This document shows, piece after piece, positions 2,410 through 20,890 of a stretch of DNA of 34,171 bases (within the stretch, counting starts at the first letter, position 1; every line of letters begins with the position of its first letter). Under the pieces are notes generated by a model, which saw only the letters and a list, made by a program, of their open reading frames with translations, had not been told where the DNA came from and ran no database searches. Made by a program: the position numbers and the translations under genes. This stretch comes from a bacterium (GTDB lineage: Bacteria > Myxococcota_A > Bradymonadia > UBA7976 > UBA1532): the NCBI GenBank assembly GCA_030426085.1, contig JAUHYW010000092.1, positions 1 through 34,171 of the forward strand, read 5' to 3'.

Positions 2410-2410
2410 T

Positions 2411-2553: not shown

Positions 2554-2618
2554 CGATATCTGGAAATGTCAGCATCCGATCGCTGCGATGCTGCGGCCAT
2601 GGGACGCAAGGACTTCGG

Positions 2619-3332
2619 ATGAGTCAGCAGGGCATTCTCGGGGGGCTGGACCCCAACCGCAAGCTGGAGGTGTCGGGCGGGCAGGGGCTGCGGGTGCTCT
2701 TCGAGCGCCGACGCATGAGCGGTGACCGGCGCGAGCGGCCGGGCGTCGGCGGCGGACGACGCGGCCCCGAGCCGGGCCGCGCCGAGGTGGCCCGCTTCGA
2801 CGAGGCGCCGGCCGAGACGACCGACATGCTCCTGCTCGCGGCGGGCGACGCGCCCATCGAGCTGGACGTGGGCCCGACCCGTCGGGTGGAGCCGCAGCGG
2901 GAGCTGCTGATGATCCGCTCGGGGGTGCTCGACGAGCTGTCGGCCGGGCTGCCGGCGGTGTCGGCGGTGGTGGTCGAGGTGCTCGATCTGCGCCGGCTGC
3001 GCCACGACGGGCGGGCCCGGGCCAAGGCCTTGCCCCACGAGCCCCGGCTGCTGACCGGGCCCCGGGAGGCGACGTGGGTCGAGGTGGACCTCAACGAGGT
3101 GCCGGGCGCGGTCTTCGTGGGCGACGCGATCGGGGTCGTGCTGCACCGGCCGGTGGGCGACGCGCTGCGGGTGCAGTGGCTGCACCGGGCGCCGGAGGAC
3201 ATCCTGCACGGGGCCCGCCCGGGCGAGCGCATCCGCCTGGAGCGGCCGGACAAGCTCACCCGCCCGGGGCCGTGGTTCATCGCCGGTCACGACATGACGC
3301 CGCCCGCCGGGGCGCTGCCCGCGCCCAAGTGA
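2619..3332 (+). CDS. Unknown protein coupled to the kinase-FGE gene
   Basis: A 237-residue protein of no recognised family. The ATG at 2619 has AAGGA six bases upstream, and third positions are almost uniformly G/C from there on, supporting real coding. There is no signal peptide or membrane segment, so it is predicted cytoplasmic. It begins LGGLDPNRKLEV and has an Arg/Gly-rich, probably disordered stretch at ~28-55. A denser region follows (~70-235) with repeated hydrophobic-acidic strands, including WVEVDLNEVPGAVFVGD and WLHRAPEDILHG. Its stop overlaps the next gene's GTG start as GTGA, so the two are translationally coupled. It may be a substrate, adaptor or regulator of the following kinase, but that rests on position alone. 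The start could lie further upstream in the same frame, although no better ribosome-binding site is seen there. Confidence 0.75.
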   Translation: MSQQGILGGLDPNRKLEVSGGQGLRVLFERRRMSGDRRERPGVGGGRRGPEPGRAEVARFDEAPAETTDMLLLAAGDAPIELDVGPTRRVEPQRELLMIRSGVLDELSAGLPAVSAVVVEVLDLRRLRHDGRARAKALPHEPRLLTGPREATWVEVDLNEVPGAVFVGDAIGVVLHRPVGDALRVQWLHRAPEDILHGARPGERIRLERPDKLTRPGPWFIAGHDMTPPAGALPAPK

Positions 3333-6067: not shown

Positions 6068-6122
6068 GATGGGGTGCCATGAGGACGCATGGCGGACGAC
6101 GTGATTCGGGAGGATGAGACCG

Positions 6123-7091
6123 ATGGCATTGCTGCAAGCCGATGACGGGCGCACGTTCGAGTGCGACAAGAACATCATGGTGGGTCGGGGGCTGCTGGAA
6201 GGCATCTCGTTCGACGAGCCCGACGGGCTCGATCTCGAGGTCTCTTCGCTGCACGCCTCGGTGACCTGGAACCCCAAGGTCCGCCGGTGGGAGCTGCGCG
6301 ATCTCGGCAGCCACAACGGCACCTTCGTCGACGGGGATCGGGTCGTGCCCGGGCAGCGGGCGCCGCTGCTCGAGGGGTCGCGGGTGGTCTTCGGCCGCCT
6401 CGGCCTCGACGTGATCGACGCCGCGCCGCCCCCGGCGCATGCGATCTGCCGCCTCACCGGCGATGTGCGGGTGGGGCGCAACGGCGCGCTGCTGCTGCCC
6501 GACGAGGGCGCGCCCGAGGTGGTGATCCTGCGCACCGATCACGGCTGGCAGCTCGGTCCGCCGGCGCTGCTCGCCGACGGGGACGACGCCGCGGCCGAGG
6601 CGGTCGAGGGGCTCGTCGAGGTGACGGCCGGGCAGCGTACGTGGCAGGTGCGGGTGCCGTCCCACACCCGGCAGACGGTGCGCAGTCAGCGGTCGCTGCG
6701 GGACTTCACCCTGGTCGTCGAGGTGCGCGAGGGCGGGGATCGCATCAGCCTGATGCTCGAGCACGAGGAGGGCTGCATCGCCCTGCCCGGGCGGGCGCAT
6801 CACGAGGTGCTGTGGATGCTCGCCCGCCGGCGGCTGACCGACATCGAGGCCGGCAAGCCCCGGGCGCAGCAGGGCTGGGTCACCCAGGAGGAGGTCATCC
6901 GGGACATGCGCTCGGGGGCGGCCGATCCGGTGTCGCACCTCAACGTCCTCGTCTTCCGGGCCCGGCAGCAGCTCGAGCCCCACGCGCCGGCGGACTACAA
7001 GAGCCTCGTGGAGCGATCCTCGGCGCGCACCGGCGTGCTGCGCATCGGCTCGGAGCGCCTGCGCATCGACGACTTCGGCGCCTGGGGCTGA
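6123..7091 (+). CDS. FHA domain plus winged-helix protein
   Basis: A 322-residue predicted cytoplasmic protein. The ATG at 6123 is preferred because GGGAGG lies 9 nt upstream; the in-frame ATG at 6114 abuts the same site with no spacing. The N-terminal FHA domain (~1-95) keeps the phosphothreonine-binding residues: VGRG, SSLHAS and GSHNGTFVDG. A middle beta-rich region (~105-215) is unassigned. The C-terminal ~100 residues resemble an OmpR/EmbR-type winged helix: VLWMLARRRL, GWVTQEEVIRDM, HLNVLVFRARQQL, then a hairpin-like TGVLRIGSERLRI. If it binds DNA, this is FHA first and winged helix last, the reverse of EmbR. It follows the kinase-FGE gene by 55 bp on the same strand, so that kinase is a likely source of the phosphothreonine signal (inference). 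DNA binding is less certain than the FHA call. Confidence 0.88.
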   Translation: MALLQADDGRTFECDKNIMVGRGLLEGISFDEPDGLDLEVSSLHASVTWNPKVRRWELRDLGSHNGTFVDGDRVVPGQRAPLLEGSRVVFGRLGLDVIDAAPPPAHAICRLTGDVRVGRNGALLLPDEGAPEVVILRTDHGWQLGPPALLADGDDAAAEAVEGLVEVTAGQRTWQVRVPSHTRQTVRSQRSLRDFTLVVEVREGGDRISLMLEHEEGCIALPGRAHHEVLWMLARRRLTDIEAGKPRAQQGWVTQEEVIRDMRSGAADPVSHLNVLVFRARQQLEPHAPADYKSLVERSSARTGVLRIGSERLRIDDFGAWG

Positions 7092-7123
7092 GCACCCGGC
7101 CGCCTTTCATCCCCCCGCCGTGA

Positions 7124-7135
7124 GCCCGATCGGGC
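7124..7135. other. 12-bp perfect palindrome downstream of the FHA gene
   Basis: GCCCGATCGGGC is a perfect palindrome 33 bp after the FHA-winged-helix stop. It could be a protein-binding site or the core of a weak hairpin; no T tract follows. The rest of 7092-7341 contains no gene I can support. Confidence 0.25.
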
Positions 7136-7282
7136 CCCGCCGACACCCTGCATGCGATCCGAGTCGACGTCGAAGCCGAGCCGCACCGGCATGGCTCGAG
7201 TCATGCGGGCGATGACTGTCCGCGAATGGCTGTGAAATGTCCCGGGGCGCCGAAGAGTGGCATGATCGATGGACCCGGCATG

Positions 7283-7297
7283 GGATCGGGGCGATCC
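7283..7297. promoter_or_regulatory. Inverted repeat upstream of small unknown gene
   Basis: GGATCG-GGG-CGATCC is a perfect 6-bp inverted repeat about 45 bp before the ATG at 7342. Its spacing fits an operator near a promoter, but no clear -35/-10 pair was identified. The call rests on symmetry and position only. Confidence 0.25.
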
Positions 7298-7341
7298 GCC
7301 GGAGACACCCAGGGGAGGAGAGAGAGGATGAGGCAACACTC

Positions 7342-7845
7342 ATGAACTGCGACAGACCCGGCTCCCCGAGCCGCGGGTCGGCCTGCGCGGCGCCGAACGC
7401 CGTCTTGCGCGGGGCCGACGGCCGCATCGGGCGGTTCACGTCCGACCGCCCGTCGGAGAGCCACCGATGGGAGTGGAGCGGTGATCCCTGGCCGATCGAC
7501 GGCTTCACCCTCGAGCCCGATACGGGCGGGCGGGCCGCGGTGGCCGCCTGGAGCGACATCTACGGCGTGCCGCCGCCCACCGCCCGCCGGATGCGCAGCG
7601 TGGCCCGGGCCGCCCGCCGGCTGTACGACGTGATCGTCGAGGAGGCGGTGGTGGCGGTCCTCGCGGTGTGCGGCGCCGGCTTGCACTGGATCGAGGTCAC
7701 CCCGGGCACGCTCGATCGCATGGGCACCGAGCCGGTCGCCTTCCGCCCCCGCTCGAGCGCGGGCATGCGGCCGGCGGACTGGAGCCTCTGTCAGCGCCCC
7801 CGGGCCCTCGGCGCCTCGTGCGGGCCGTGGCCCGAGCGCGCATGA
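7342..7845 (+). CDS. Small unknown protein
   Basis: A 167-residue protein of unrecognised family. The ATG at 7342 follows a purine-rich GAGGATGAGG ribosome-binding region, and the frame shows near-complete G/C at third positions throughout (clear from about 7480), so coding is likely. It has no signal peptide. The central part (~50-115) looks folded: a WSDIYGVPPPTARRM stretch, then an Arg/Ala-rich helix and a hydrophobic VIVEEAVVAVLAVCGAG segment that may be a buried helix rather than a membrane span. The C-terminus is Pro/Arg/Ser-rich with two further cysteines. The helix-rich middle hints at a DNA- or protein-binding fold, but no function is assigned. It converges on the kinase gene at 7865 with only 19 bp between the stops. 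Confidence 0.6.
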   Translation: MNCDRPGSPSRGSACAAPNAVLRGADGRIGRFTSDRPSESHRWEWSGDPWPIDGFTLEPDTGGRAAVAAWSDIYGVPPPTARRMRSVARAARRLYDVIVEEAVVAVLAVCGAGLHWIEVTPGTLDRMGTEPVAFRPRSSAGMRPADWSLCQRPRALGASCGPWPERA

Positions 7846-7848
7846 GGC

Positions 7849-7858
7849 GGCCGCGGCC
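7849..7858. terminator. Palindrome between convergent stops
   Basis: GGCCGCGGCC is a perfect palindrome centred in the 19-bp gap between the convergent stops at 7845 and 7865. It may help end transcription in both directions, but there is no U tract and the stem is short with no loop of its own. Confidence 0.2.
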
Positions 7859-7864
7859 GGGCGG

Positions 7865-9262
7865 TCACTCCTCGACGCTGTCGAGCTGCCCCGATCCGAA
7901 TGACTCGTCGACCGTCGAGCCGGTGATCTCCATCGGGTCGGCCAGGGCTTCGCCCCGGGCGAGGCCGTCGGCGCTCGGCACGCTGTCGGTGATGGGGCGG
8001 TCGCCGAGCGCGGCGGGCACCCCCGGCGCGGTGTCGCGGGCGGGTTCGCTGCGCGGCTCACCGCTCGCGGCGACCCAGGTCGGCGGGTGGTGGTCGCCGG
8101 TCCACGCGTCGCCCGCCCCCGAGGGGCCCCGGGGCTCGTCCCCGCCGCGGCGGGCGGCGAGCCAGGCGTCGATCTCGTCGAGCAGCTCGCTCTCGCTGGC
8201 GTCGGCGCCCCCGTCGACCGGGGTGTCGTCGCCGTCCTGGCCCACCAGCCGGGTGTACGTGGCGCCCGAGCCGGTCGGGGTGCGGTCGGAGAGGGCCCGA
8301 TCGTCGAACGAGCGGTACAGCGCCTCGGCCTCGGCGAGCTCCTGGGCGAACATCTGCCGCACCCGGGCCGCGGCCGCCGCCCGCCCGTCGCCGGCCCCCT
8401 GCGCCCGGCGCCAGTCGGCGAGGGCGTCGGCGAACGCCGCCGCGGTGGGGAAGCGGTCGTCGGGGTCCTTGGCCAGCGCCCGGGCGACCACCGCGTCGAA
8501 CGCCCCGTCGAGCCCCTCGGGGCGCACCGCGCTCGGCGGGTGGGCCGCCGCCCGGCGCACGGCGTCCATCACCCGGTTGTCGTCGTCTCCCCGAAACGGC
8601 AGCCGCCCGGTCACCGCGAAGTAGAGCACCACCCCTGCCGCGAAGACGTCGGACCGGCGGTCGAGGGCCGCCGAGCGGGTCTGCTCGGGGCTCATGTAGC
8701 GCACCTTGCCCTTGATGAAGCCGGCTCGGGTGCGGGCCTTGTTGAACCGGGCCTTGGCGATGCCGAAGTCGGTCAGCTTCACCGATCCGTCCTCGCCGAC
8801 GAGGATGTTCGACGGGCTGAAGTCGCGGTGCACCAGCTTGAGCGGGCGGCCGTCGTCGTCCCGGGCCTCGTGGGCGTGGTGCAGCCCGCGCAGGGCCCGC
8901 TCGACGATCCAGGCGGCGGTGGTGGCCGGCAGGGCCTCCCGCCGCTCGCCGGCCCGGCGGATGATCGCCCGCAGGTCGACCCCCGGGACGTACTCCATCG
9001 CCAGGAAGTACTGCCCGTCGACGACCCCGAACTCGAGGGTCCGGGTGATGTTGGGGTGGTCGAAGAGCGCGGTGATGCGGGCCTCGTCGGTCAGCATCAC
9101 GATGAACTCTTCGTCGTCGTTGTAGACCGGCAGCGGTCGCTTGAGGGCCACCTCGCGGGCCTCGCCGCCGACGTATTGCCGGGCGCGGTACAGCTCGGCC
9201 ATGCCGCCGGACGCGACCCGGTAGAGCAGCAGATAGGGACCGAAGGGGCGAGGGCGTCGCAC
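7865..9262 (-). CDS. Soluble Ser/Thr protein kinase (Hanks type)
   Basis: A 465-residue kinase starting with GTG. The kinase domain (~8-285) has a slightly degenerate glycine loop (VASGGMAELY), ATP-binding Lys41, a probable C-helix Glu60, catalytic HRDFSPSN (145-152), DFG (165-167) and SPE (191-193). It should therefore be active and phosphorylate Ser/Thr. The C-terminal ~170 residues are Asp/Ala/Pro/Gly-rich and look mostly disordered, with a short helix (LLDEIDAWLAARR) and many Thr/Ser that could be autophosphorylated and read by FHA domains. There is no transmembrane segment, unlike the two kinases at 14530 and 18443. No Shine-Dalgarno sequence precedes the GTG; a -10-like box lies 6 nt upstream, suggesting a leaderless message. 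It is divergent from the lipoprotein-prkA group. Confidence 0.94.
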   Translation of the reverse strand: MRRPRPFGPYLLLYRVASGGMAELYRARQYVGGEAREVALKRPLPVYNDDEEFIVMLTDEARITALFDHPNITRTLEFGVVDGQYFLAMEYVPGVDLRAIIRRAGERREALPATTAAWIVERALRGLHHAHEARDDDGRPLKLVHRDFSPSNILVGEDGSVKLTDFGIAKARFNKARTRAGFIKGKVRYMSPEQTRSAALDRRSDVFAAGVVLYFAVTGRLPFRGDDDNRVMDAVRRAAAHPPSAVRPEGLDGAFDAVVARALAKDPDDRFPTAAAFADALADWRRAQGAGDGRAAAAARVRQMFAQELAEAEALYRSFDDRALSDRTPTGSGATYTRLVGQDGDDTPVDGGADASESELLDEIDAWLAARRGGDEPRGPSGAGDAWTGDHHPPTWVAASGEPRSEPARDTAPGVPAALGDRPITDSVPSADGLARGEALADPMEITGSTVDESFGSGQLDSVEE

Positions 9263-9469: not shown

Positions 9470-9994
9470 ATGATGTTCCGGTCGAACCCGTTCCTCTCCG
9501 TCGCCTGGGCCCTGCTCGTCGGGGGGCTCGCCCTCGCCGGTTGCGAGAAGCCGGCCGACGAGGCCCCGCCCGAGGCGAAGGCCGCCGAGGCGGCCCCGAG
9601 CACCGCGACCCCGCCTCCGGCGGCGAAGAAGGGGGCCGCGCCGGCTCCGGTCGCCCAGACCTACAAGATCCGCATCACCCCCGGCGAGGCCGCCGCCGGC
9701 CAGCAGGCGACGAGCGTGATCGAGGTCACCCCGATGCCGGGCTACAAGATGAACAAGGACTTCCCCTCGCGGCTGGCGCTCGACCCGGCCGAGGGGGCGA
9801 CCCTGACCAAGACCGCCTTCGAGAAGGGCGACGCCGAGCTGTCCGAGGAGATGCTGCGCTTCGAGATCCCGTTCACCGCGGCGGCGGCGGGCAAGCTCGA
9901 CCTCAGCGGCATGGCCGACTTCAGCGTGTGCAACGAGAACGCCTGCAAGCTCATCCGCGATGAGAAGGTGGCCTGGCAGGTGGCGGTCCGCTGA
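9470..9994 (+). CDS. Lipoprotein with DsbD-alpha-like CxxxxC domain
   Basis: A 174-residue lipoprotein. The signal peptide ends in the lipobox LAGC (Cys25). An Ala/Pro/Lys-rich linker (~28-64) precedes a single beta-sandwich-like domain (~65-174). The domain has charged strands, a conserved-looking MPGYKMN turn, and near its end two cysteines, Cys154 and Cys159, in VCNENACK. This resembles the alpha domain of DsbD and related thiol-handling modules, where such a pair moves electrons in the periplasm; the assignment is tentative. The ATG follows GGTGGGAG. The gene lies 51 bp before prkA on the same strand, so the two may share a transcript. It could equally be a structural lipoprotein whose Cys pair forms a disulfide. 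Confidence 0.85.
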   Translation: MMFRSNPFLSVAWALLVGGLALAGCEKPADEAPPEAKAAEAAPSTATPPPAAKKGAAPAPVAQTYKIRITPGEAAAGQQATSVIEVTPMPGYKMNKDFPSRLALDPAEGATLTKTAFEKGDAELSEEMLRFEIPFTAAAAGKLDLSGMADFSVCNENACKLIRDEKVAWQVAVR

Positions 9995-10045: not shown

Positions 10046-12286
10046 TTGACCTCGCCCACCGAGCGGCCCGACCCCGCCGAGTTCCTCACCCGCACCGTCG
10101 AGGCGACCCGCCGCGACTTCGAGTCCCGGGCGACCCTGCTCGGCTTCGCCGAGTACCTCGATCGGGTGGCCGCCGAGCCGGCGGCGCACCTGCGCGACGC
10201 GGCGATGTACACCCGCGACGCGATCCGCTCCTTCGGCACCGAGCGGGTCGACCGCCCCTACGGGCAGTTCACCCGCCACCGCATCTTCGACGCGGCCTTC
10301 GACGACGGCCGCGATCCGGTCATGGGTCACGAGCCGGTGCAGCAGGCGGTGGTGGGCCTGCTGACCGACTTCGTGCGCGCGGGGCGGGTCAACCGGCTGG
10401 TGCTGCTCAACGGGCCCAACGGCAGCGCCAAGAGCAGCTTCGTCGCCTGCGTGATGCGGGGGCTCGAGCACTACTCGGGTCAGCCCGAGGGCGCGCTGTA
10501 CACCTTCAACTGGGTCTTCCCCAGCGCCCGCTTCGAGAAGAGCGGCATCGGCTTCGGCAGCCCCCGGGGGGTGGACGAGCTGGAGACGTTCGCCCACCTC
10601 AAGGAGGGCGATGTCGACGCCCGCATCCGCTGCGAGACCCGCGATCATCCGCTGCTGCTGCTGCCCCGGGCCGAGCGGCGGGCGTTCATGCGGGCGGTCG
10701 TCGGCGCGGACGCGCCGCTGCCGTCGAGCCTGACCGAAGGCGAGCTGTCGCCCAAGGCCCGCCAGATCCGCGACGCGCTGCTCAAGGCGTATCAGGGCGA
10801 TCTGGGCGAGGTGCTCAAGCACGTTCAGGTCGAGCGGTTCTATATCAGCCGCCGCTATCGCGAGGCGGCGGTGACGGTCGATCCCCAGATGCGGGTCGAC
10901 GCCGGGGTGCGCCAGCTCACCGCCGATCGCAGCCTGGGCGCGCTGCCCCCGAGCCTGCACAACCTGACGCTCTTCGAGCCGCTGGGTGATCTGGTCGACG
11001 CCAACCGGGGGGTGGTCGAGTACAACGATCTGCTCAAGCGCAACATCGAGGCGTTCAAGTACCTGCTGTCGACCTGTGAGACAGGCGCGGTGCGGCTCGA
11101 CACGATGGTGCTGCACCTCGACGCGGTGCTGCTCGGCACGTGCAACGCCGGGCGGCTGACCCACTTCAAGGGCAGCCCCGACTTCGCCAGCTTCAAGGCC
11201 CGCATCGAGCTGGTGACGATGCCCTACCTGCTCGACTATCGGCTCGAGGCCCGCATCTACGACGGAGTGCTGCGCGGCCTGGGGCGCGATCTGCCGGTGG
11301 GGCCGCACGTCGCCGAGGCGCTGGCCCTGTGGGCGGTGATGTGCCGGCTCGAGCCGCCGCTGGCCGAGGACGAGAGCCGGTCGGAGGGCATCCGCAAGGC
11401 GCTGGAGGGCATGAACCCGCTGGACAAGGCCCGGCTGTACGCCGAGGCCCGGGTGCCCGCGGGGGTGCCTCGGGACGTGGCCAACAGCCTGGTGGGGCTC
11501 ATCCCGGCGCTGTACCGCGAGCGGGCGAACGCCGAGATGTACGAGGGCCGCCGGGGGCCGAGCCCGCGCGCGCTCAAGGGGCTGCTGCTCTCGGCCGCTC
11601 GCCGGGCCAACGGCTGCCTGACGACGGTCGGCCTGCTCGACGCGCTGGCCGGGCTGGTCGAAGAGACGGCGGTCTACCCCTGGCTGGCCATCGAGCCCGA
11701 GGGCATGTGGCATCACCCGCGCAAGGCGATCGACCTGCTGCGGGGGTGGTACCTCGACCGGGTCGAGGAGGAGCTGCACCAGGCGATGGGGCTCGTCGAC
11801 GAGACGGCGACTACCGCGCTGATGCGGCGCTACATCGACCACGCGGTGCACTTCGTGCGGGGCGAGAAGCGGCTCAACCCGGTCACCGGGCGGGCCGAGG
11901 AGCCCGACGTGCGGCTGATGCAGGACGTCGAGAAGCGGCTGCGGGTGCCGGTGGACGGCGGCCGCGACTTCCGTGAGGGGGTGGTGCACCGCATCGCCGC
12001 CTGGCGCATGGAGCACCCCGAGGGCGCGCTGGATTACGGCGTGATCTTCCGGGAGCACATCAACCGGCTCAACGAGAGCTTCTACGAGGAGAAGCGCAAG
12101 CAGTCCACCCGCATCCGGCGCGACCTGCTGTCGTACCTCGTCGACGACGGGGCCCGGCTCGAGGCCGAGGTGCTCACGCGGGTGGAGAAGACGGTGGCTG
12201 CGCTCGAGCAGGACTTCGGCTACGACCGCGCGTGCGCGGTCGAGGTGATCGGGTTCCTGTTCCGGCAGCGGGCAGAGACCGCCTGA
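10046..12286 (+). CDS. prkA: PrkA family AAA+ serine protein kinase
   Basis: A 746-residue homologue of PrkA, an ATP-dependent AAA+ protein long described as a Ser kinase and linked to stress responses and sporulation in other bacteria. The N-terminal region has the family's F-x-x-YL and DAIRSFG features. Walker A is GPNGSAKS (123-130), and an ICDP-like AAA+ core extends to ~430. The C-terminal part (~500-746) matches the PrkA kinase-like region, including MRRYIDHAVHF and the FREHINRLNESFYEEKRKQ segment. The start is TTG, with AAGGGAG at the proper distance; no better ATG lies nearby. At 746 residues it is longer than the ~640 of enterobacterial PrkA. The usual partners yeaH/DUF444 and spoVR are not adjacent. 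Instead an envelope lipoprotein precedes it and two envelope genes follow by 25 bp. Confidence 0.93.
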   Translation: MTSPTERPDPAEFLTRTVEATRRDFESRATLLGFAEYLDRVAAEPAAHLRDAAMYTRDAIRSFGTERVDRPYGQFTRHRIFDAAFDDGRDPVMGHEPVQQAVVGLLTDFVRAGRVNRLVLLNGPNGSAKSSFVACVMRGLEHYSGQPEGALYTFNWVFPSARFEKSGIGFGSPRGVDELETFAHLKEGDVDARIRCETRDHPLLLLPRAERRAFMRAVVGADAPLPSSLTEGELSPKARQIRDALLKAYQGDLGEVLKHVQVERFYISRRYREAAVTVDPQMRVDAGVRQLTADRSLGALPPSLHNLTLFEPLGDLVDANRGVVEYNDLLKRNIEAFKYLLSTCETGAVRLDTMVLHLDAVLLGTCNAGRLTHFKGSPDFASFKARIELVTMPYLLDYRLEARIYDGVLRGLGRDLPVGPHVAEALALWAVMCRLEPPLAEDESRSEGIRKALEGMNPLDKARLYAEARVPAGVPRDVANSLVGLIPALYRERANAEMYEGRRGPSPRALKGLLLSAARRANGCLTTVGLLDALAGLVEETAVYPWLAIEPEGMWHHPRKAIDLLRGWYLDRVEEELHQAMGLVDETATTALMRRYIDHAVHFVRGEKRLNPVTGRAEEPDVRLMQDVEKRLRVPVDGGRDFREGVVHRIAAWRMEHPEGALDYGVIFREHINRLNESFYEEKRKQSTRIRRDLLSYLVDDGARLEAEVLTRVEKTVAALEQDFGYDRACAVEVIGFLFRQRAETA

Positions 12287-12311: not shown

Positions 12312-12812
12312 GTGGTGAGACGAGCGGCGATGCTGGTCGCGGCGGTTCTCGTCGGCGCGGGGCCGGCGATGGCCGAGGAGGGGGCGCGCTCGCCCCGGGA
12401 GCTGATCAAGTCCTACGAGGCCGAGGCCCAGGCGCTGAGCGAGGCCGGCAGCGGGCCTCGGGTGGCTGAGCAGATCGGGACGCTGCGGGCGTGGCTCGGC
12501 GAGGCCCGGGCCCACCTGCTCGCCGATGAGCCCGAGCGGCTGCGGCAGCAGCTCGCGCTGGCCCGGGCCCAGATCCGGTTGATCCGGGCCAACATCGACC
12601 GGGCGACGGTCGAGGCCGATGTGCGGGCGGCCCGGGATCGGGCGGCGGCCCTGTCGACGTCGGCCACCGAGCTGCGCAACGAGGCGTTCCGGCTCGAGCA
12701 GCGGCTGACCGAGCTCGAGGCGAAGGCCCGTGAGGCGGGGGCCGGCGCGACGCCGGCGCCGTCGGAGGATCAGCCCGCGCCGGTCCTGGCGCCCCCGGGA
12801 GGTGCCCCGTGA
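12312..12812 (+). CDS. Periplasmic coiled-coil protein
   Basis: A 166-residue exported protein. Tandem GTG codons open the frame after a GGGGAGACGGAG region. The first ~21 residues form a signal peptide with likely cleavage after AMA. The rest is almost entirely helical and charged (~25-140), with heptad-like Leu/Ala spacing typical of a coiled coil, and ends in a Pro/Ala-rich tail. No catalytic motif is visible. The stop overlaps the next gene's GTG start (GTGA), so it is translationally coupled to the OmpA-like lipoprotein and probably works with it at the envelope. A scaffold or spacer role is inferred. Confidence 0.85.
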   Translation: MVRRAAMLVAAVLVGAGPAMAEEGARSPRELIKSYEAEAQALSEAGSGPRVAEQIGTLRAWLGEARAHLLADEPERLRQQLALARAQIRLIRANIDRATVEADVRAARDRAAALSTSATELRNEAFRLEQRLTELEAKAREAGAGATPAPSEDQPAPVLAPPGGAP

Positions 12813-13966
12813 TCCGCCCGTGGATGCTGCGGCGCGCGCTCGCCGCCCCCGCGCTGGCCGTGGCCCTCGCCGCCTGCGGCACCCAGCCCAAGCCGGCCGA
12901 GCTGTTGACCTTCGAGCAGCTCCGCCTCGGCGAGACGGCGCTGACCGTGCAGGACCGCCAGCCCGAGCTGTACGCCGAGGCCGAGGCGGCCTACAAGAAG
13001 GCGCTCGAGGCCCACGAGGACGGCGAGGCCGAGGAGACGCTGCACTACACCCGCCTGGCCGATATCACCTGGCGCACCGCGGTCGCCCGCAGCCAGCTCG
13101 AGGATCGACGGGACGCCCTCAAGGCGGCCACCCGCGACCTCGAGGCGGCGCAGCAGGCCCACGACGACGCGCAGCAGCGCAAGGTGCTCGCCGAGGAGGG
13201 CATCGCCCGCCAGATGCGGCTGATCGAGATGCAGGCGGAGATCGCCGCGGCCGAGGTCCGCAGCCGGCAGGTCAAGCGGGCGGCCGACGCCAAGGCGAAG
13301 GTCGACGCGGCGGCGGCGGGCATCGCCGAGGCCGAGGCGGTCGACGCCGCCCGCCACGCGCCGGGCGAGCTGAACAAGGCCCGGGCCGGGCTCAAGATGG
13401 CGCTCGAGCAGCTCACCGCGGGGGACTACAAGCAGGCCGAGGCCACCGCCGGCTTCGTGGTCGCCGACGCCCAGGCGGCGATCGCGGTGGCGAAGCCGAA
13501 GTGGGCCCTCGATCAGAAGATGCGCAATATGGAGGCCCGCCTGCGGGGCATCCTCGACGCGGCGGCCACGGTGCCCGGCGCCGAGAGCCGGCTCGAAGCC
13601 CGGGGGGCGGTCATCACGCTGCGCGAGCTGTTCGCGTCGGGCAAGACGGCGATCGAGACCGACCGGCTGAGCGCGGTGCAGCAGACCGCGAAGATCGCCC
13701 GGGACTTCTCCGAGTTCCGGCTGATCGTCGAGGGGCACACCGACAACCGGGGGCGCAAGCGCACGAACCTGAAGCTCAGCGAGGAGCGGGCCCGGTCGGT
13801 GGCCGGTCAGATCCAGGGCAACGGGGTCGACGGTGATCGCATCACCGCCATCGGGCGGGGGGACGACGAGCCGATCGACGACAACGCCAGCCGCGAGGGG
13901 CGGGCCCGCAACCGGCGGGTGGACGTGGTCTTCCTCAAGCCGACGAAGGCCGAGATGGCGCAGTAG
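12809..13966 (+). CDS. OmpA-family lipoprotein with helical N-terminal region
   Basis: A 385-residue lipoprotein. The GTG start has GGGAGG six bases upstream and overlaps the previous stop. The signal peptide ends in the lipobox LAAC (Cys23). Residues ~30-140 are helical and resemble the DUF4398 type seen in OmpA-like lipoproteins. A long Ala/Glu/Arg-rich coiled coil (~95-240) follows, then an OmpA C-like peptidoglycan-binding domain (~285-378) with VEGHTDNRG, LSEERARSV and NRRVDV. The last motif contains the Arg that contacts diaminopimelate in the family. The predicted role is to tether the outer membrane to peptidoglycan. It is the last gene of the prkA-side group and converges on the response regulator. 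Confidence 0.95.
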   Translation: MIRPWMLRRALAAPALAVALAACGTQPKPAELLTFEQLRLGETALTVQDRQPELYAEAEAAYKKALEAHEDGEAEETLHYTRLADITWRTAVARSQLEDRRDALKAATRDLEAAQQAHDDAQQRKVLAEEGIARQMRLIEMQAEIAAAEVRSRQVKRAADAKAKVDAAAAGIAEAEAVDAARHAPGELNKARAGLKMALEQLTAGDYKQAEATAGFVVADAQAAIAVAKPKWALDQKMRNMEARLRGILDAAATVPGAESRLEARGAVITLRELFASGKTAIETDRLSAVQQTAKIARDFSEFRLIVEGHTDNRGRKRTNLKLSEERARSVAGQIQGNGVDGDRITAIGRGDDEPIDDNASREGRARNRRVDVVFLKPTKAEMAQ

Positions 13967-14009: not shown

Positions 14010-14408
14010 TCAGCGCATCCGGTGCCCGCCGCGCTCTTCGAGCACCCGCCGCACCTTGCCCAGCACGTCTTCGATCTGGAACGGCTTGGTCACGTAGAAC
14101 TTGGCCCCCACGTTGATGCCTTCGATCATGGTGTGGGGGTCGCTCTTGGCGGTCAGGAAGATGACCGGGATGCCCCGGGTCTCTCGGCGGTTCTTGAGCG
14201 CCTTGGTGAAGGTCAGCCCGTCGAGGATCGGCATCATCACGTCGACGATGATCAGATCGGGGCGGTAGTCCTCGAGCGCCCGCAGCCCGTCGAGCCCGTC
14301 GACGGCCTCCCGCACATCGTAGTCGTGCTTGACGAGCAGCCGGGCGACCATCTGCCGCACGTGGGCCTCGTCTTCGATGATCAGGATGTTCTTCTTCTCG
14401 TCGGACAT
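14010..14408 (-). CDS. Single-domain response regulator (CheY-like receiver)
   Basis: A 132-residue stand-alone receiver domain. The acidic pair Glu12/Asp13, phospho-acceptor Asp56 (in IIVDVMMP), switch Thr86 and Lys108 (TKPF) are all present, so it should accept phosphate from a histidine kinase. There is no output domain, so it presumably acts by protein contacts, as CheY or DivK do. No histidine kinase is encoded in the window. The ATG follows a GAGAGG ribosome-binding site, and a good sigma-70-type promoter lies just upstream. It is divergent from the membrane kinase at 14530. Confidence 0.96.
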   Translation of the reverse strand: MSDEKKNILIIEDEAHVRQMVARLLVKHDYDVREAVDGLDGLRALEDYRPDLIIVDVMMPILDGLTFTKALKNRRETRGIPVIFLTAKSDPHTMIEGINVGAKFYVTKPFQIEDVLGKVRRVLEERGGHRMR

Positions 14409-14529: not shown

Positions 14530-16395
14530 ATGAACGAGCCGCGTTACGGTCGCTACACCGTCGCCGACAAGATCGGCCAGGGCGGGATGTCGGTGGTCTA
14601 TCGAGCCATCGATCCGTCGCTCGATCGCGCCGTCGCCCTCAAGGTCATGCACCCCCACCTCGCCGATCGGCCCGAGTCCCGGGCCCGCTTCGCCCGCGAG
14701 GCCCGGGCGGTCGCCCGGCTGCGCCACCCGCACATCGTCGAGGTCTACGACTTCGCCCCCGCCGAGAGCGAGCAGGCCTACATCGTCAGCGAGCTGATCG
14801 AGGGGCCGACCCTGCGGGCCTTCGCCGAAGAGCACCCCCTGCGCCACCCCGAGGCGGCGGCGCTGCTGATGCTGCCCATCGTCGAGGCGCTCGCCTCGGC
14901 TCACTCGGCGGGCATCGTGCACCGGGACGTCAAGCCGGAGAACATCATGATCCGGCCCGATGGCTCGCCGGTGCTGATGGACTTCGGCATCGCCCAGATG
15001 GTCGACACCGAGACCCTCACCGCCACCGGCACCGTGCTCGGCTCGCCGGCCCACATGGCGCCGGAGGTGATCGACGGCCACGACGTGGGCGCGCCGGCGG
15101 ACGTCTTCGCGGTGGGCACGGTGCTCTACTGGCTCGTCTGCGGCGCGCTGCCCTTCGCCGGGCCCAACCCCTCGGCGCTGTTCCGGCGCATCCTCGAGGG
15201 CCGCTTCGACCCGGTCCTCCAGCGGCGGCCACACGCTGGGCGGGCCATGGCCCGGCTGATCGAGGCGTGCCTGGTGACCGAGGCCGACGGGCGCCCCAGC
15301 GCGGCGGCGCTGGCCGAGGATCTGACCGCCCGGCTCACCGACGCCGGCCTCTCCGACCTGCGCGCCGAGCGGGTGGCCTTCGTGGCCGATCCGGCGGTGT
15401 ATCAGGACGAGCTCGGTCGGCGCCTGCTGCCCCGGCTGGTGACCCGGGCCCGGGAGGCGCTGGCCCAGCGGCGCACGGCCCGGGCGCTGGATCTGCTCGA
15501 CCGGGCGCTGGGGCTCGACGAGAACCACCCCGAGGCCCAGGCGCTGCTCGAGCGCATCGAGCGGGGGCAGAGGCTGGGGCACCGGCTGCGCATCGCGGCG
15601 GTCGTGCTGGTGGTGCTGGCCCTCGGCGGGGGCGGGTGGTGGATCGCGGCGGGCATGGTCGGGCCCGACGTGCCGGCGGCCGACGGCGGCGCGCTGGCGA
15701 CGGTCGGGCCGGACATGGGGTCGGTGCGCCCGCCCGACGCGGCGGCCGACGGCGCGCCCGACCAGGCGATGGACGCCCGCCTCGAGTCCGCGCCCGACGG
15801 CGGATCGGACGCCGGGCTCGAAGCCGACGCGACGCCCGACGCCGCCCGGGTCGCCGCCCGCCCCATCCGCACTCCGGGGCGCCGCCTGCGCCCCCGCATC
15901 CGCCCCCCGGCGCCCGAGCCCGAGCCGCCCCCGACCGCCGCCGCCCGGGTGACGATCCACGGTCAGTACAAGGGCGCCCGGGTCTTCGTCGACGGCGCGT
16001 CGAGGGGCTACCTCTACGTCATCGAGCGGGCGGGCGGCATCACGCTGCCCCCCGGGCGCCACGAGATCCGGTTCCAGAACCCGGGCTGTGCCGACCAGAC
16101 CCACACCGTCGAGATCGCGCCCGGCCAGACCCGGGCCCCGCCGGTGGTCTTCACCTGCGTGCACCGCCCGGCGACGCTGCGGGTCGAGGGGCCCGATCAG
16201 CTCGAGGTGCGCCGCACCGACGACGGGGTGCAGCTCGGCCGCACCAATCAGGACATCCGGGTGCCGGTCGACCAGCTCAAGACCCGCATCAGCTTGACCA
16301 TCGGCACCCCCGGCGATAGCGTCGAGCGGCATACGGTGACCCTCACCGCCGGCGAGCGCCAGGTCATCCGGCTCGCGCGCCGGCCCGACCCCTGA
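14530..16395 (+). CDS. Membrane Ser/Thr kinase with PEGA-like outer domain
   Basis: A 621-residue single-pass kinase. The cytoplasmic kinase domain (~7-275) has loop GQGGMSVVY, Lys38, Glu57, HRDVKPEN (131-138), DFG (151-153) and APE (177-179), all consistent with activity. A helical juxtamembrane stretch (~300-350) leads to one transmembrane segment (~354-376; AVVLVVLALGGGGWW). An Asp/Ala/Pro linker (~380-470) and a beta-rich PEGA-like region (~475-610) then lie outside the cytoplasm; the region includes GARVFVDGASRGY and PPGRHEIRFQN. PEGA domains are thought to bind surface-layer or cell-wall components, so the protein may sense the envelope. The start begins MNEPRYGRYT, usual for the family. 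It is followed by an exported TPR-like protein, an arrangement repeated at 18443-20890. Confidence 0.95.
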   Translation: MNEPRYGRYTVADKIGQGGMSVVYRAIDPSLDRAVALKVMHPHLADRPESRARFAREARAVARLRHPHIVEVYDFAPAESEQAYIVSELIEGPTLRAFAEEHPLRHPEAAALLMLPIVEALASAHSAGIVHRDVKPENIMIRPDGSPVLMDFGIAQMVDTETLTATGTVLGSPAHMAPEVIDGHDVGAPADVFAVGTVLYWLVCGALPFAGPNPSALFRRILEGRFDPVLQRRPHAGRAMARLIEACLVTEADGRPSAAALAEDLTARLTDAGLSDLRAERVAFVADPAVYQDELGRRLLPRLVTRAREALAQRRTARALDLLDRALGLDENHPEAQALLERIERGQRLGHRLRIAAVVLVVLALGGGGWWIAAGMVGPDVPAADGGALATVGPDMGSVRPPDAAADGAPDQAMDARLESAPDGGSDAGLEADATPDAARVAARPIRTPGRRLRPRIRPPAPEPEPPPTAAARVTIHGQYKGARVFVDGASRGYLYVIERAGGITLPPGRHEIRFQNPGCADQTHTVEIAPGQTRAPPVVFTCVHRPATLRVEGPDQLEVRRTDDGVQLGRTNQDIRVPVDQLKTRISLTIGTPGDSVERHTVTLTAGERQVIRLARRPDP

Positions 16396-16453
16396 GAGCC
16401 CGCCCGATGACGCCCGCCCCTCCTCCCGCTGAGCGCCCCCACCGCCCGGTCGC

Positions 16454-17287
16454 GTGAGGGTGGGGGTGAGAGGCGCGGCCTTCGCCGGCCTGATCGGCGC
16501 CGTGGGCGTGGTCTCGCCGGCCGCGGCCACCCCCGAGGACGATCTGCGCGACGCGGAGAACTCCTACCTGTATGGGGACTACCCCCGGGTCATCGCCAAG
16601 CTCGAGCCGCTCGTCGAGCCCGACATCCTGCTCGCCGCCCCCGACGAGCTGGCCCGGGCCTACGAGCTGCTCGGGCTGTCGACCTTCTTCCTCGACCGCC
16701 AGAAAGACGCCCGGATGTGGTTCGAGCGCCTCATCCGCTTCCGCCCCGACGCCCGGCTGAACCCGGTGCTGGTGCCGCCCCCCGCGGTGAGCCTGTTCGA
16801 CGAGGTGCGCGAGAGCCTCGCCGACGAGATCGCCCGCATGCAGGAGGCCCTGCGCAAGCAGCGCGAAGAAGAGGAGGAGCGCCGCCGGCTGGCCCGGCTG
16901 ACCCGGGTGCGCATCGAGACCCAGGTCAACTCCCGGCTCGTCGCCAGCGTGCCGTTCGGCGTGGGGCAGTTCCAGAACGGGCAGGATGGCCTGGGCTACA
17001 CCCTGCTCGCCAGCCAGCTCGTCGCCGGGGGCACCTCGCTGGGCTGCTTCATCGCCGTCGAGAACCTGCGCCAGAGCGACGGCTTCTTCGATCGCAGCGA
17101 CGTCGACAACGCCCGCACGCTGCAGCAGGTGCAGCTCTGGAGCGGCGGCGCGGCGCTGGTGCTGATGGTGGGCGGTGTCATCCACGCCTGGGCGACGTTC
17201 CGCGACGAGGTGCCGCTGCGCGAGACGACGCTGCCGCCGCCGGGCGGGGGGCTGCCCGGAGAGAGCCTGCTGCGCTGGACGTTCTGA
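16454..17287 (+). CDS. Exported TPR-like protein with two hydrophobic segments
   Basis: A 277-residue protein. The GTG at 16454 opens the frame, but the GTG at 16466 has GAGG at better spacing and may be the true start. A signal peptide ends near AAAT (~residues 24-26). Residues ~27-105 form TPR-like helices (NSYLYGDYPRVIAKLEPL, then ELLGLSTFFLDRQKDARMWFERLIRF). A charged Glu/Arg helix (~110-150) is followed by two hydrophobic segments (~178-202 and ~230-248), and the C-terminus is Pro-rich. It follows the membrane kinase by 58 bp on the same strand. The protein of 20024-20890 has the same order (signal, TPR, paired hydrophobic segments) behind another PEGA-like kinase. It may present the periplasmic partner or sensor surface; function is otherwise unknown. 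Confidence 0.85.
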   Translation: MRVGVRGAAFAGLIGAVGVVSPAAATPEDDLRDAENSYLYGDYPRVIAKLEPLVEPDILLAAPDELARAYELLGLSTFFLDRQKDARMWFERLIRFRPDARLNPVLVPPPAVSLFDEVRESLADEIARMQEALRKQREEEEERRRLARLTRVRIETQVNSRLVASVPFGVGQFQNGQDGLGYTLLASQLVAGGTSLGCFIAVENLRQSDGFFDRSDVDNARTLQQVQLWSGGAALVLMVGGVIHAWATFRDEVPLRETTLPPPGGGLPGESLLRWTF

Positions 17288-17302
17288 GCCGGGCGGGCTC
17301 TC
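17261..17302. terminator. Nested inverted repeats over convergent stops
   Basis: GAGCC (17286-17290) pairs with GGCTC (17296-17300), and a competing 7-bp arm pairs GAGAGCC (17261-17267) with GGCTCTC (17296-17302). These symmetric elements overlap or flank the two convergent stops, TGA 17285-17287 and, on the minus strand, 17301-17303. No T tract is present. Confidence 0.35.
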
Positions 17303-18311
17303 AGGGCGGGAAGCCCTCTTCGGGGGCCAGCGCGCAGCGGTCGATGCCCTCCCCGTGGTTCGCCTCGGGGTCGCGGTCGTCGCAGTCGACGCAGGCGTCC
17401 TCGCCGTCGCCGTCGGCGTCGACCTCGGGATCACACGGCGTCTCGCACAGCGCGTTGATCGGGTTGGCCGCGTTGTCGCCGCAGTGGTCGTCGTTCCACC
17501 CGAAGTCATCGGTCATCGGGTTGTAGAGCAGGCTGACGCAGGTCTCGCCGAGGATGACGTCGTCCGGCTCGCCGGCGCCCCAGCAGCCCCCGGCGGGCAG
17601 GGGCGGCGTCTCGGCCCGATCGGTGCGGGCGATGCTCTCGCCGTCGTCGGGCAGCCCCAGCCGCATGCCCAGCCACCACCCCCGGCCGCGGGCGTTGTTC
17701 TCCCAGATCACCGGCTCGGGCACGAGGTTGCCGGTGGCCCAGATCCACGCGCTCTCCTCGCAGGTGTCGGTCACCGCCACGGTCAGGGCGAGCGTCTGGG
17801 TGCAGGTCACGAGCGCCTCGGCCTCGGAGACCGGGCGATCACAGAAGAGGTACGACTGATGCCCCCGGTGGCGCCAGCGGCAGTGCCCGGGGATGGCACA
17901 GCGCAGGGTGTCTTCGTCGACCTCGCCGTCACAGTCGTCGTCCAGCCCGTTGCATCGCTCGTCGGGACACTGCGGGCCCAGATCGGGCGCGGGGCCGCGG
18001 TCGAGCGGGCCGGTGTCCGGTGGAGCGCCGTCGGTCTCGGGGCCCCGGTCGGCGCCCGCCGCGTCCGAGGCGTCGGGCGGGTCTCCATCGAGGTCGGCGT
18101 CGGGTCGGGCAGCGTCACCGGCGGCGTCGGGTCGCGCGCCGTCGGGGTCTGATCCCCGGTCGGGCGCGGCGCCGGGCAGCACGCACGCCCGGTCGATGCA
18201 GACCAGGCCCGCCCCGCAGGCGTCGCCGCCGATGCGGCAGGGGGGCGCCTCGTCGAACAGGCAGCCGGTCATGAGGAGGGTGATCGCCGAGGCGAGGGGG
18301 AGCATGCGCAT
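17301..18311 (-). CDS. Lipoprotein with MopE-like motifs and C-type-lectin-like domain
   Basis: A 336-residue lipoprotein starting MRMLPLA, with lipobox MTGC (Cys17). A Cys-rich segment (~24-42) and a long Asp/Ala/Pro linker (~43-115) precede a MopE-like metal-binding motif, CNGLDDDCDGEVDE (~122-135). A C-type-lectin-like domain (~150-295) follows, with WWLGMRLG, an EPDD in place of the sugar-binding EPN, CVSLLYN, and WNDDHC in place of WND. A second DCDD-type repeat (DADGDGEDACVDCDD) ends the protein. The combination points to a surface-exposed, metal-dependent binding protein; the ligand is unknown. It is convergent with the TPR-like gene and divergent from the kinase at 18443. Confidence 0.92.
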   Translation of the reverse strand: MRMLPLASAITLLMTGCLFDEAPPCRIGGDACGAGLVCIDRACVLPGAAPDRGSDPDGARPDAAGDAARPDADLDGDPPDASDAAGADRGPETDGAPPDTGPLDRGPAPDLGPQCPDERCNGLDDDCDGEVDEDTLRCAIPGHCRWRHRGHQSYLFCDRPVSEAEALVTCTQTLALTVAVTDTCEESAWIWATGNLVPEPVIWENNARGRGWWLGMRLGLPDDGESIARTDRAETPPLPAGGCWGAGEPDDVILGETCVSLLYNPMTDDFGWNDDHCGDNAANPINALCETPCDPEVDADGDGEDACVDCDDRDPEANHGEGIDRCALAPEEGFPP

Positions 18312-18317
18312 GGCGGC

Positions 18318-18347
18318 AGTGTGCCCCACTGATCGCGGGCCGGGCAA
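18318..18347 (-). promoter_or_regulatory. Weak promoter candidate for lectin-like lipoprotein
   Basis: On the minus strand, TTGCCC (18342-18347) is followed by 18 bp and CACACT (18318-18323), which ends 6 nt before the ATG at 18311. The -10 match is poor. It is listed because the geometry repeats that seen before the genes at 9262 and 20024. Confidence 0.22.
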
Positions 18348-18402
18348 CGGCCGCCGGTCGGCCCGGCGTCACGGCGTCGTTGTGGCGGCGCCCCCGACCG
18401 GT

Positions 18403-18411
18403 TGCTATGTT
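18403..18411 (+). promoter_or_regulatory. Extended -10 element ahead of kinase gene
   Basis: TGCTATGTT is an extended -10-like element (TGn plus TATGTT). The only TTG-type -35 candidate (TTGTGG, 18380-18385) is 20 bp away, longer than optimal. A start near 18418 would leave a ~25-nt leader to the ATG at 18443. Confidence 0.35.
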
Positions 18412-18442
18412 GCCCCACGTGTGAGTGACGCCCCGGTGGGAG

Positions 18443-19948
18443 ATGCATCCGCTCGTCGGCAAGACCATCAGCGATCGCTATACGCTGCACCGGCTGGTGG
18501 GCAAGGGCGCCATGGGGCGGGTCTATCTGGCGACCGACCAGCGACTGCACGGTCGCGAGTGCGCGGTCAAGATCCTCCAGGCCCACGAAGACGAGGAAGA
18601 GCGGGGCCGCTTCGAGCGCGAGCTGCGCATCGTGTCGCTGCTCAAAGGCCCCAACATCGTGCAGGTGCTCGACTCGGGGGTGATGGCGGACGGGCGGCCG
18701 TACATCGTCATGGAACTGCTCGTCGGCAACTCGCTGCACCACGTCGTGCGGCGCAAGGGGGCCATCGACCCCGCCGAGGCGATCGGGGTCGCGATCGACG
18801 TGCTGCAAGGGCTCGCCGAGGCCCACGTCTACGGCATCGTGCACCGCGATCTGAAGCCGGCCAACATCTTCCTCTGCCCGACCCACGACGATCGCATCCA
18901 GGCCAAGGTGCTCGACTTCGGGGTCGCCAAGCAGCTCCGGGGCGACGACGCCGACATCACCAAGACCCGGGCCTCGGTCGGCACGCCGCGCTACATGGCC
19001 CCCGAGCAGTTCGTGGGCGGCCCGCTGTCGGCCCGCACCGATCTGTACGGGGTCGGGGTGCTGCTCTACATCATGCTGACCGGAGAGCCGCCCTTCTCCG
19101 GCGATGAGGAGGTGCCTGAGGCCATCCGCGAGCTGCCCCTGTCGGCCCGGCTCGCGTGGCTGCATCTGCACCGCCCGCCGCCGCCGGTCGACGGGGTGAG
19201 CCCCCAGCTCGCCGGGCTGGTGGCCGAGCTGATGGCCAAGAAGGCCGCCGACCGCCCGCCGGCGGCCCGGGCGGTCATCGAGCGGCTGCGGCGATTGCCC
19301 GAGGCGGCCGACGGGCCGCGGCTGCCCCAGCTCACCGGGGGCTACGGCGCGGTGCCGCCCGACGACGCCTCGTCGGGGCCGTCCCGGGCCACCGCCTCGC
19401 TCATCCCGCCGAGCAGCCCCCGCCGCTTCTCGCTGGCCTGGGTCTACGCGCTCGTCGCCGTCGCGGCCGGCCTCGGGGTCTGGCTGGCGTGGCCCGACGC
19501 GTGCGCCCACCGGATCGAGTCGGTGCCGCCCGGCGCGGCCGTCTGGATCGACGGAGCCCGGGTCGGCGCGACGCCCTACGCCGTGCAGCGGCTGTGCGGC
19601 GAGACCCGGGCGGTGGAGCTGCGGCTGGCGGGGCACGACAGCCGGCGGGTCCTGCTCGCGCCGGGCAGCGCGGCCCGGGTCGAGGCGGTCCTCAACCCGC
19701 TGGCTGCGGTCGTCACCCCGGCGGTCGAGTCACCGGACGCGGCCGATGCGCCCGACGCGGCCGCGCCCGACATGTCGCCGTTCGACGCCGCCCCCGACGC
19801 GGGCCCGCCCGACGCCCGGCCCCGATCCCGGGGCCGGCGCCGCTCCCGCGTCCGCCGGCCGCCCCCGCCCGATCCGGCGCCCCCGCCGGTGAAGGCGCCC
19901 CCGAAGCCCGCCCCCGACGCGGGCGGGGGCAACATCCTCCCGTTCTGA
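18443..19948 (+). CDS. Membrane Ser/Thr kinase with PEGA-like outer domain
   Basis: A 501-residue kinase. The ATG at 18443 is chosen because the resulting MHPLVGKTISDRYTL is the usual opening of this kinase class; an in-frame GTG at 18425 would add six residues. The kinase domain (~14-275) has loop GKGAMGRVY, Lys43, Glu60, HRDLKPAN (134-141), DFG (158-160) and the TPRYMAPEQF activation-segment end. One transmembrane segment (~333-352; WVYALVAVAAGLGVWLAW) is followed by a PEGA-like domain (~358-425; VPPGAAVWIDGARVGATPY) and an Asp/Ala/Pro and Arg-rich tail. The organisation matches the kinase at 14530, and the next gene is again an exported TPR protein. The outer domain probably binds the envelope or that partner. 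Confidence 0.95.
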   Translation: MHPLVGKTISDRYTLHRLVGKGAMGRVYLATDQRLHGRECAVKILQAHEDEEERGRFERELRIVSLLKGPNIVQVLDSGVMADGRPYIVMELLVGNSLHHVVRRKGAIDPAEAIGVAIDVLQGLAEAHVYGIVHRDLKPANIFLCPTHDDRIQAKVLDFGVAKQLRGDDADITKTRASVGTPRYMAPEQFVGGPLSARTDLYGVGVLLYIMLTGEPPFSGDEEVPEAIRELPLSARLAWLHLHRPPPPVDGVSPQLAGLVAELMAKKAADRPPAARAVIERLRRLPEAADGPRLPQLTGGYGAVPPDDASSGPSRATASLIPPSSPRRFSLAWVYALVAVAAGLGVWLAWPDACAHRIESVPPGAAVWIDGARVGATPYAVQRLCGETRAVELRLAGHDSRRVLLAPGSAARVEAVLNPLAAVVTPAVESPDAADAPDAAAPDMSPFDAAPDAGPPDARPRSRGRRRSRVRRPPPPDPAPPPVKAPPKPAPDAGGGNILPF

Positions 19949-19988
19949 GCGCGCGCGGCCCGGCCTCTGGCCGACGGGCCCGCCGCAG

Positions 19989-20017
19989 TTCACTCGATCG
20001 CCGCGCGGTGGTAGAAC
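19989..20017 (+). promoter_or_regulatory. Candidate promoter for leaderless TPR-PEGA mRNA
   Basis: TTCACT (19989-19994), a 17-bp spacer and TAGAAC (20012-20017, preceded by TGG as an extended -10) fit a sigma-70-type promoter. The start would fall at or beside the ATG at 20024. No ribosome-binding site precedes that ATG, which fits a leaderless transcript. Confidence 0.42.
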
Positions 20018-20023
20018 GAGCCG

Positions 20024-20890
20024 ATGCGCAGCTTCCCGTTCCATGGCCTGCTCGCGGCGGCCCTCATCGCGGCCCCGCTGGCGCCCGCCGGGGCCACGCC
20101 CGCCGAGGGCGAGGCGCTGCTGATGAAGGCCGAGGCCGCCATCCGCGAGGGCGACTCGACCCGGGCGGTGCTCTTCCTCGAGCAGGCCTACGCCGCCGAC
20201 CCCGACCCGCGCTACATCGCCAACCTGGGGGTGGTCTACGAGCGCAGCGGGCAGTACGCCGAGGCGGCCGACGCCTTCGAGCGCTACCTGGCCAGCGACC
20301 CCGAGCCCAGCAAGCGGGCGGCGGCCGAGTCGGCGCTGGCCCGGCTGCGCCCCGAGGGGCTGATCGTCTCCCGCCCGTCGGGGGCCGCGGTCTTCATCGA
20401 CGGCGCGCCCGAGCCCGCCGGGCGCACGCCCCTGCGCACCCGCCTGCTGGCCGGCCCCCACACGGTGCGGCTGGCGCTCGATGGCCACCTGCCGGCCGAC
20501 GCGGCGCTGGCGGTCGAGGCGGGGCAGGGGTTCCAGCTCGAGCGGGCGCTGTCCCCCGAGCCGGTCGACGCCGGCGGCGATCGGCGGCTGGCGGGCTACC
20601 TGCTCGTGGGCGGCGGGGCGGCGGCGCTGCTGGTGGGCGGCGGCCTGGGCTGGCTCACCGCCGACGCGCTCGCCGAGCGGGACGCGGCCGCGTCGTCCAC
20701 CGCCTTCCTCGACGCCCAGAACCGGGCCAACCTCTACGGCTGGAGCGGCATCCTGGCCGGCGCCGTGGGCCTGGGCGCCGTGGCGGCGGGCAGCTACCTG
20801 CTCGTGACGCCCGCCGACGCGCCCGCCGAAGCGGGGGTCGACGCGGTCGTCGTCGGCCCGGGCGGGGTGGGGCTCACGGGGCGCTTCTGA
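20024..20890 (+). CDS. Exported TPR protein with PEGA-like domain and two hydrophobic segments
   Basis: A 288-residue protein. The signal peptide ends near AGATP (~22-25). TPR-like helices (~28-105) include AEAAIREGDSTRAVLFLEQA, split as usual into paired helices, and YERSGQYAEAADAFERYL. A PEGA-like domain (~110-180) contains SRPSGAAVFIDGAPEP and AGPHTVRLALDGH. Two hydrophobic segments (~192-212 and ~240-262) flank a DAQNRANLYGWSG loop that resembles the equivalent loop in the 16454-17287 protein. The product is envelope-located. It follows a PEGA kinase by 75 bp, although it seems to have its own promoter. The pairing suggests a sensor-partner role; no enzymatic motif is seen. Confidence 0.9.
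   Translation: MRSFPFHGLLAAALIAAPLAPAGATPAEGEALLMKAEAAIREGDSTRAVLFLEQAYAADPDPRYIANLGVVYERSGQYAEAADAFERYLASDPEPSKRAAAESALARLRPEGLIVSRPSGAAVFIDGAPEPAGRTPLRTRLLAGPHTVRLALDGHLPADAALAVEAGQGFQLERALSPEPVDAGGDRRLAGYLLVGGGAAALLVGGGLGWLTADALAERDAAASSTAFLDAQNRANLYGWSGILAGAVGLGAVAAGSYLLVTPADAPAEAGVDAVVVGPGGVGLTGRF

Follow-up and report, generated by a model that had tools for sequence, protein, structure and literature searches.

Does a locus in which a membrane kinase gene followed by a gene for an exported tetratricopeptide repeat (TPR) protein occurs twice within a few kilobases hold a module that has been duplicated, or two units with separate histories? The locus lies on contig JAUHYW010000092.1 of the bradymonadial assembly GCA_030426085.1 (Myxococcota_A), analyzed here over a stretch of 34,171 nucleotides, hereafter the window. 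The first pair comprises the membrane Ser/Thr kinase K1 (14530–16395, + strand, 621 aa) and the exported protein T1 (16454–17287, +, 277 aa), and the second the membrane Ser/Thr kinase K2 (18443–19948, +, 501 aa) and T2 (20024–20890, +, 288 aa), with a lipoprotein gene (17301–18311, −) between the two. All five open reading frames are where the preliminary description of this DNA had placed them, and Pfam returned Pkinase matches for K1 and K2 with E-values of 1e-48 and 2e-50. That description proposed that each TPR protein is the dedicated envelope partner of its kinase and that the whole unit had duplicated. The neighborhoods and trees presented below support the first proposal and contradict the second.

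K1–T1 represents a kinase–TPR operon that is spread across the Myxococcota, often with a σ54 activator as its third gene. A T1 profile scan of the GTDB species genomes returned 255 relatives, from which 79 loci ranked by similarity were kept; because of that ranking, 20 further loci were added, all on long contigs retrieved by searching the phylum at large. Among the 67 loci with enough contig, 61 have a kinase gene just upstream of the T1 homolog and in the same orientation, one additional upstream kinase being masked by a frame error, and an upstream kinase was also found in 19 of the 20 further loci. The next gene downstream of T1 encodes an FHA–σ54 activator in 60 of 76 loci and in 8 of the 20 further ones. 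The T1 family itself was found in 269 of 377 sampled Myxococcota genomes, corresponding to 174 of 234 genera. Pairwise distances of T1 and of the kinase were correlated (r 0.82; partial correlation 0.52 when allowing for the activator, 40 loci), as expected if the genes are inherited together. An apparent kinase–T1 fusion (locus L135) and an apparent T1–activator fusion (L124) were rejected as frame errors, given the out-of-frame sequence between their parts. Our literature search, outside which most subscription papers lay, found no description of the kinase–TPR–σ54 operon, of the C-terminal tail discussed below or of myxobacterial PEGA kinases; the operon may have been noticed before, and it is largely unstudied.

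K2–T2 and the MopE-like lipoprotein constitute a unit separate from K1–T1, drawn from a larger, multi-copy kinase/TPR–PEGA system. T2 has several relatives in its own genome, and the genomes of the family hold 1 to 14 matches each at an E-value of 1e-8. We surveyed the neighborhoods of T2-like proteins in the 13 genomes of the family, with 194 genes as controls, drawn from 20 regions that were placed arbitrarily in three of these 13. A kinase was the direct neighbor of 45% of the T2-like proteins against 3.1% of the control genes, and lay within two genes of 71% against 6.2%; the pairing of TPR protein and kinase is therefore statistically supported for T2 and well supported by synteny for T1, with kinases adjoining TPR proteins in related genomes far above the control level. 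Proteins with MopE motifs occur near 20% of the T2 relatives and 0.5% of the controls, and the orthologue of the window lipoprotein, whose own MopE motif scores below threshold, adjoins K2–T2 in the sister genome, the same-genus assembly G006. The lipoprotein had been suggested as a possible third component, which is plausible for K2–T2 and does not hold for K1–T1, where the FHA–GAF–σ54 activator is the gene conserved in third place. A second lipoprotein akin to the MopE-like one is encoded beside the K2–T2 unit of G006 (L074:6043–6717, −).

The two kinases differ in ancestry as well as in architecture. In a tree of 125 kinase domains K1 fell among the T1-linked kinases and K2 among the T2-linked ones, separated by a path of 2.72 changes per column. 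Forcing K1 and K2 together with their orthologues was rejected by the approximately unbiased (AU) test (p 0.000526), and a single clade of all T1-linked kinases was not (AU p 0.83), such that the two occupy separate groups and form no duplicate pair. Both had been described as PEGA-type kinases. The designation holds for K2, which has a transmembrane segment and a PEGA match above the Pfam cut-off (27.8 against 20.8 bits), and fails for K1, which scored 16.2 bits and in which only 7 of 51 aligned relatives had a PEGA match (E 0.001). The AlphaFold2 model of K1 (mean pLDDT 85.7) places the kinase domain at residues 1–270, followed by a helical juxtamembrane part with the transmembrane segment to about residue 375, a Pro/Asp-rich disordered linker of roughly 80 residues (about 378–460) and two beta domains (472–614). 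The matches listed by a fold search with K1 were taken up by kinase domains, PknB being the closest among them, so that the two beta domains drew no identification. K1 resembles the PASTA-type kinases (PknB/Stk1) in its kinase domain, its single transmembrane segment and its extracytoplasmic sensor part, whereas it has the linker and two beta domains in place of PASTA repeats and a dedicated TPR partner gene; the window kinases scored 269.9 and 244.4 bits with the PASTA-kinase model NF033483, against a curated cut-off of 450.

Comparison with the sister genome exposed the seam between the two units. In G006 the lipoprotein–K2–T2 group is located on contig C74, and contig C35 carries K1, T1 and, immediately following T1, the σ54 activator. 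Synteny stops at window position 17290 and resumes at 17301, a gap within 11 bases, which sets the breakpoint (17288–17300) between a left side that corresponds to C35 and a right side that corresponds to C74. The left block also breaks exactly at the start codon of the activator (window 2409), and no block corresponding to window 2410–8006 was found in G006; together these indicate more than one event. The unmatched segment, by its comparison with this single sister a presumptive lineage-specific gain or loss, codes for a canonical FHA protein (6123–7091) and, at 3437–6067, for a protein that joins a kinase to an FGE-sulfatase-like domain.

Next, we examined the TPR proteins. For T1, an AlphaFold2 model that draws on 58 sequences has a mean pLDDT of 90.1, with values near 97 for the hairpin helices and low confidence for the tail. 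A signal peptide recognized in the sequence precedes the modeled TPR region (27–96), helices to residue 148, a strand (151–158), a helical hairpin (178–205 and 214–247), a further strand (252–260) and a tail ending in LLRWTF. The two hydrophobic segments reported earlier are thereby borne out as helices. T1 itself has no Pfam match, and its TPR assignment comes from the model and from the TPR_2 matches in 29 of 58 relatives; T2, in turn, matches both TPR and PEGA in Pfam (PEGA at 34.3 bits, above the cut-off), has a signal peptide and, as predicted from its sequence and alignment, carries a hydrophobic hairpin. In T1 a near-invariant PFGxGQFQN motif precedes the hairpin. When T1 was compared with solved structures, its TPR part alone was matched, which is no proof that the hairpin is new. 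T1 was the sole convincing match to itself in its own genome, other matches having E-values of 0.036 or worse. Two further identities were considered for T1 and rejected: a TssQ-type lipoprotein of the type VI secretion system (NF038027, 19.6 bits against a cut-off of 65) and an outer-membrane beta-barrel protein, given that the hydrophobic segments are helices at pLDDT of about 97. T2 is typical of the TPR–PEGA proteins that Myxococcota export; T1 has the TPR, hairpin and tail in common with these proteins, and differs in the missing PEGA domain, the PFGxGQFQN motif and the kinase group to which it is linked.

The preliminary description had also pointed to a likeness between the loops of the two hydrophobic hairpins. 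In profile comparisons T1 and T2 matched at full length with 95.9% probability (reversed control 4.3%, column shuffles below 2%), and at 96.2% with a larger T1 set. Since TPR similarity is generic, the C-terminus is more telling for the kinship of the two proteins: the C-terminal parts matched at 67.6% (reversed 5.8%, best of 30 column shuffles 0.2%), above chance, and the hairpins alone gave a weak 27.7% against 9% for the reversed control. The clearer common feature, absent from the preliminary description, is the C-terminal tail. Both families share the consensus ~G-G-x-G-L-x-(F/G)-R-F with alternating hydrophobic and polar residues (GVGLTGRF in T2 itself), and the final residue is Phe in 56 of 78 T1 relatives and 36 of 56 T2 relatives, against 10 of 292 control proteins. 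The strict tail motif occurs in 26 of 78 T1 and 20 of 55 T2 relatives, and in a single one of 689 other proteins, itself T2-like. T1 and T2 are probably related at long range, and a very ancient common origin is possible on these alignments. In appearance the tail is close to the final strand of an outer-membrane barrel. This look-alike of the outer-membrane beta-signal is thus found on the T1/T2 relatives, and the membrane part of T1 is helical.

The activator of the operon is displaced in the window (604–2409, −), its gene lying directly 3′ of T1 in relatives. It contains an FHA, a GAF, a sigma54 activator and a Fis helix-turn-helix (HTH) domain, and a GAFTGA-type loop is present in 55 of 55 relatives. 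The FHA domain is degenerate: of the 55 activators, 11 retain the phosphothreonine-contacting Arg and 3 the Ser, a single one has both, and the Asn of the NGT motif likewise survives in one, while the FHA domain of the neighboring gene at 6123–7091 is canonical and keeps these contacts. The loss of the contact residues makes a phosphothreonine relay through the FHA domain unlikely, and the activator may instead take its signal through the GAF domain, or its binding to the kinase may be independent of phosphate. FHA-domain σ54 enhancer-binding proteins of Myxococcus, for which PMC4320627 cites Jelsbak et al. (2005, PNAS), have the same combination of FHA, sigma54 activator and HTH domains; the window activator is unlike them in lacking the phosphothreonine contacts and in being tied to a kinase–TPR operon.

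Taken together, we favor, with moderate confidence in the explanation as a whole, that K1–T1 is a copy of an envelope-signaling operon and that K2–T2–lipoprotein is an analogous, separate unit brought next to it by a rearrangement after the two sister species had diverged, with no tandem duplication. K1 would be a sensor kinase of the inner membrane whose periplasmic head is tethered, and T1, exported and anchored through its helical hairpin in the inner or the outer membrane, would use a periplasmic TPR domain to offer the beta domains of K1 an envelope ligand or the Phe-ended tail of T1 itself, or to withhold it. The cytoplasmic kinase activity would be altered as a result, and the output would be transcription via the FHA–GAF–σ54 activator where one is present. 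T1 and T2 would likely each serve as the envelope-sensing subunit of the adjacent kinase. Several points weigh against this proposal. Architecture and gene order account for the first steps; the periplasmic site of the TPR domain, the contact between kinase and T1, the signaling with its direction and the activator as its target are what we infer, and a simple phosphothreonine–FHA relay appears doubtful from the residues of the FHA domain. The activator is not downstream in 12 of the 20 broader loci, so that in many lineages the kinase–T1 pair functions in its absence. Finally, the rearrangement is read from metagenome assemblies, and a misassembly at 17290/17301 is possible.

Tandem duplication of a kinase–TPR unit followed by divergence would account for the identical gene order and strand of the two pairs, and for profiles of T1 and T2 that match over 200 columns and end in a common tail. 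We nevertheless consider it very unlikely, as K1 and K2 are no sisters (p 0.0005, distance 2.72), the units reside on different contigs of G006 with the break lying between them, and T1, which has no convincing paralogue, and T2 belong to separate widespread families for which only a very ancient common origin is possible. Slightly more improbable still is that kinase–TPR adjacency reflects a mere clustering of signaling genes in signaling-rich genomes: the window does contain four kinase-fold genes and several regulators, but an adjacent kinase in 45% of T2-like proteins and in over 90% of T1 loci stands against 3.1% of controls, and the same-strand order of T1 is kept across families.

Two other accounts concern what the TPR proteins do, and both seem to us unlikely, though less so than those just discussed. 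T1 and T2 could be located at the outer membrane, where the Bam machinery would read the Phe-ended strand like a beta-signal and the TPR would reach back to the beta domains of the kinase. The alternating, Phe-ended tail with its GxGLxFRF consensus (56/78 and 36/56 against 10/292), the near absence of the motif elsewhere (1/689, the one being T2-like) and the disordered linker of K1, whose roughly 80 residues could span the periplasm, speak for such an arrangement; the lack of a beta-barrel, the confidently helical hydrophobic part of T1, the low confidence of the modeled tail and the relatives that lack the final Phe speak against it. Alternatively, the kinase could use T1 as a substrate or scaffold, or T1 could be an envelope-assembly factor, in either case exerting no control over the kinase, with the gene order reflecting co-expression. 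TPR proteins are often scaffolds, and the TPR part of T1 matches solved envelope assembly proteins including YbgF, BamD and PilF; such matches are generic, however, and the fact that T1 is paired with one particular kinase group throughout the phylum points to a dedicated role. The preferred envelope-signaling operon also bears comparison with the Nfs-type envelope complex of Myxococcus (PMC2875238), in which TPR and FHA proteins are encoded together in an envelope context, although Nfs lacks the kinase–TPR–sigma54 order and a relation is suggested by the literature alone.

Upstream of K1–T1, the genes between 7865 and 14408 precede the operon in several genera of the family. They encode a second kinase-fold protein kept in the larger cluster of the family (7865–9202, −), a small lipoprotein-like protein likewise kept (9470–9994, +), a PrkA-type protein kept upstream of K1–T1 (10046–12286, +), a small exported cluster protein with no Pfam match (12330–12812, +), a lipoprotein-like protein with an OmpA C-terminal domain, also kept (12824–13966, +), and a single-domain response regulator (14010–14408, −) whose gene, in most relatives with contigs that extend far enough, separates K1 from the OmpA gene. 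Elsewhere in the window, the segment 21864–24788 (−) encodes a large exported protein, amylase-like by eye, whose Gly/Cys-rich, then hydrophobic C-terminus followed by RRPR resembles a MYXO-CTERM sorting tail, and 33988–34161 is a coding sequence of Pro/Glu-rich repeats with many matching places in G006.

The Ser/Thr kinase sets of myxobacteria are among the largest known in bacteria, according to PMC2887360. Few inputs or outputs of these kinases are known, and the phylum-wide gene order points, for one kinase group, to a probable sensor partner and to a probable output at the level of transcription. A bolder possibility, which we regard as a long shot and put below either account of the TPR proteins just weighed, yet above duplication, is that the TPR–hairpin proteins with an outer-membrane-protein-like tail form a new class of envelope sensors, the tail reporting how outer-membrane protein assembly stands and the report passing to transcription through a dedicated Ser/Thr kinase and the phosphothreonine-blind FHA–GAF–σ54 activator; if true, this would give the σE envelope-stress response a kinase-based counterpart. 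The main value of the locus lies in the phylum-wide operon, the common tail and the phosphothreonine-blind FHA domain. The tail motif marks the partner proteins, by which the wiring becomes directly testable, and the degenerate FHA is a warning against presuming a phosphothreonine relay wherever FHA and kinase genes adjoin.

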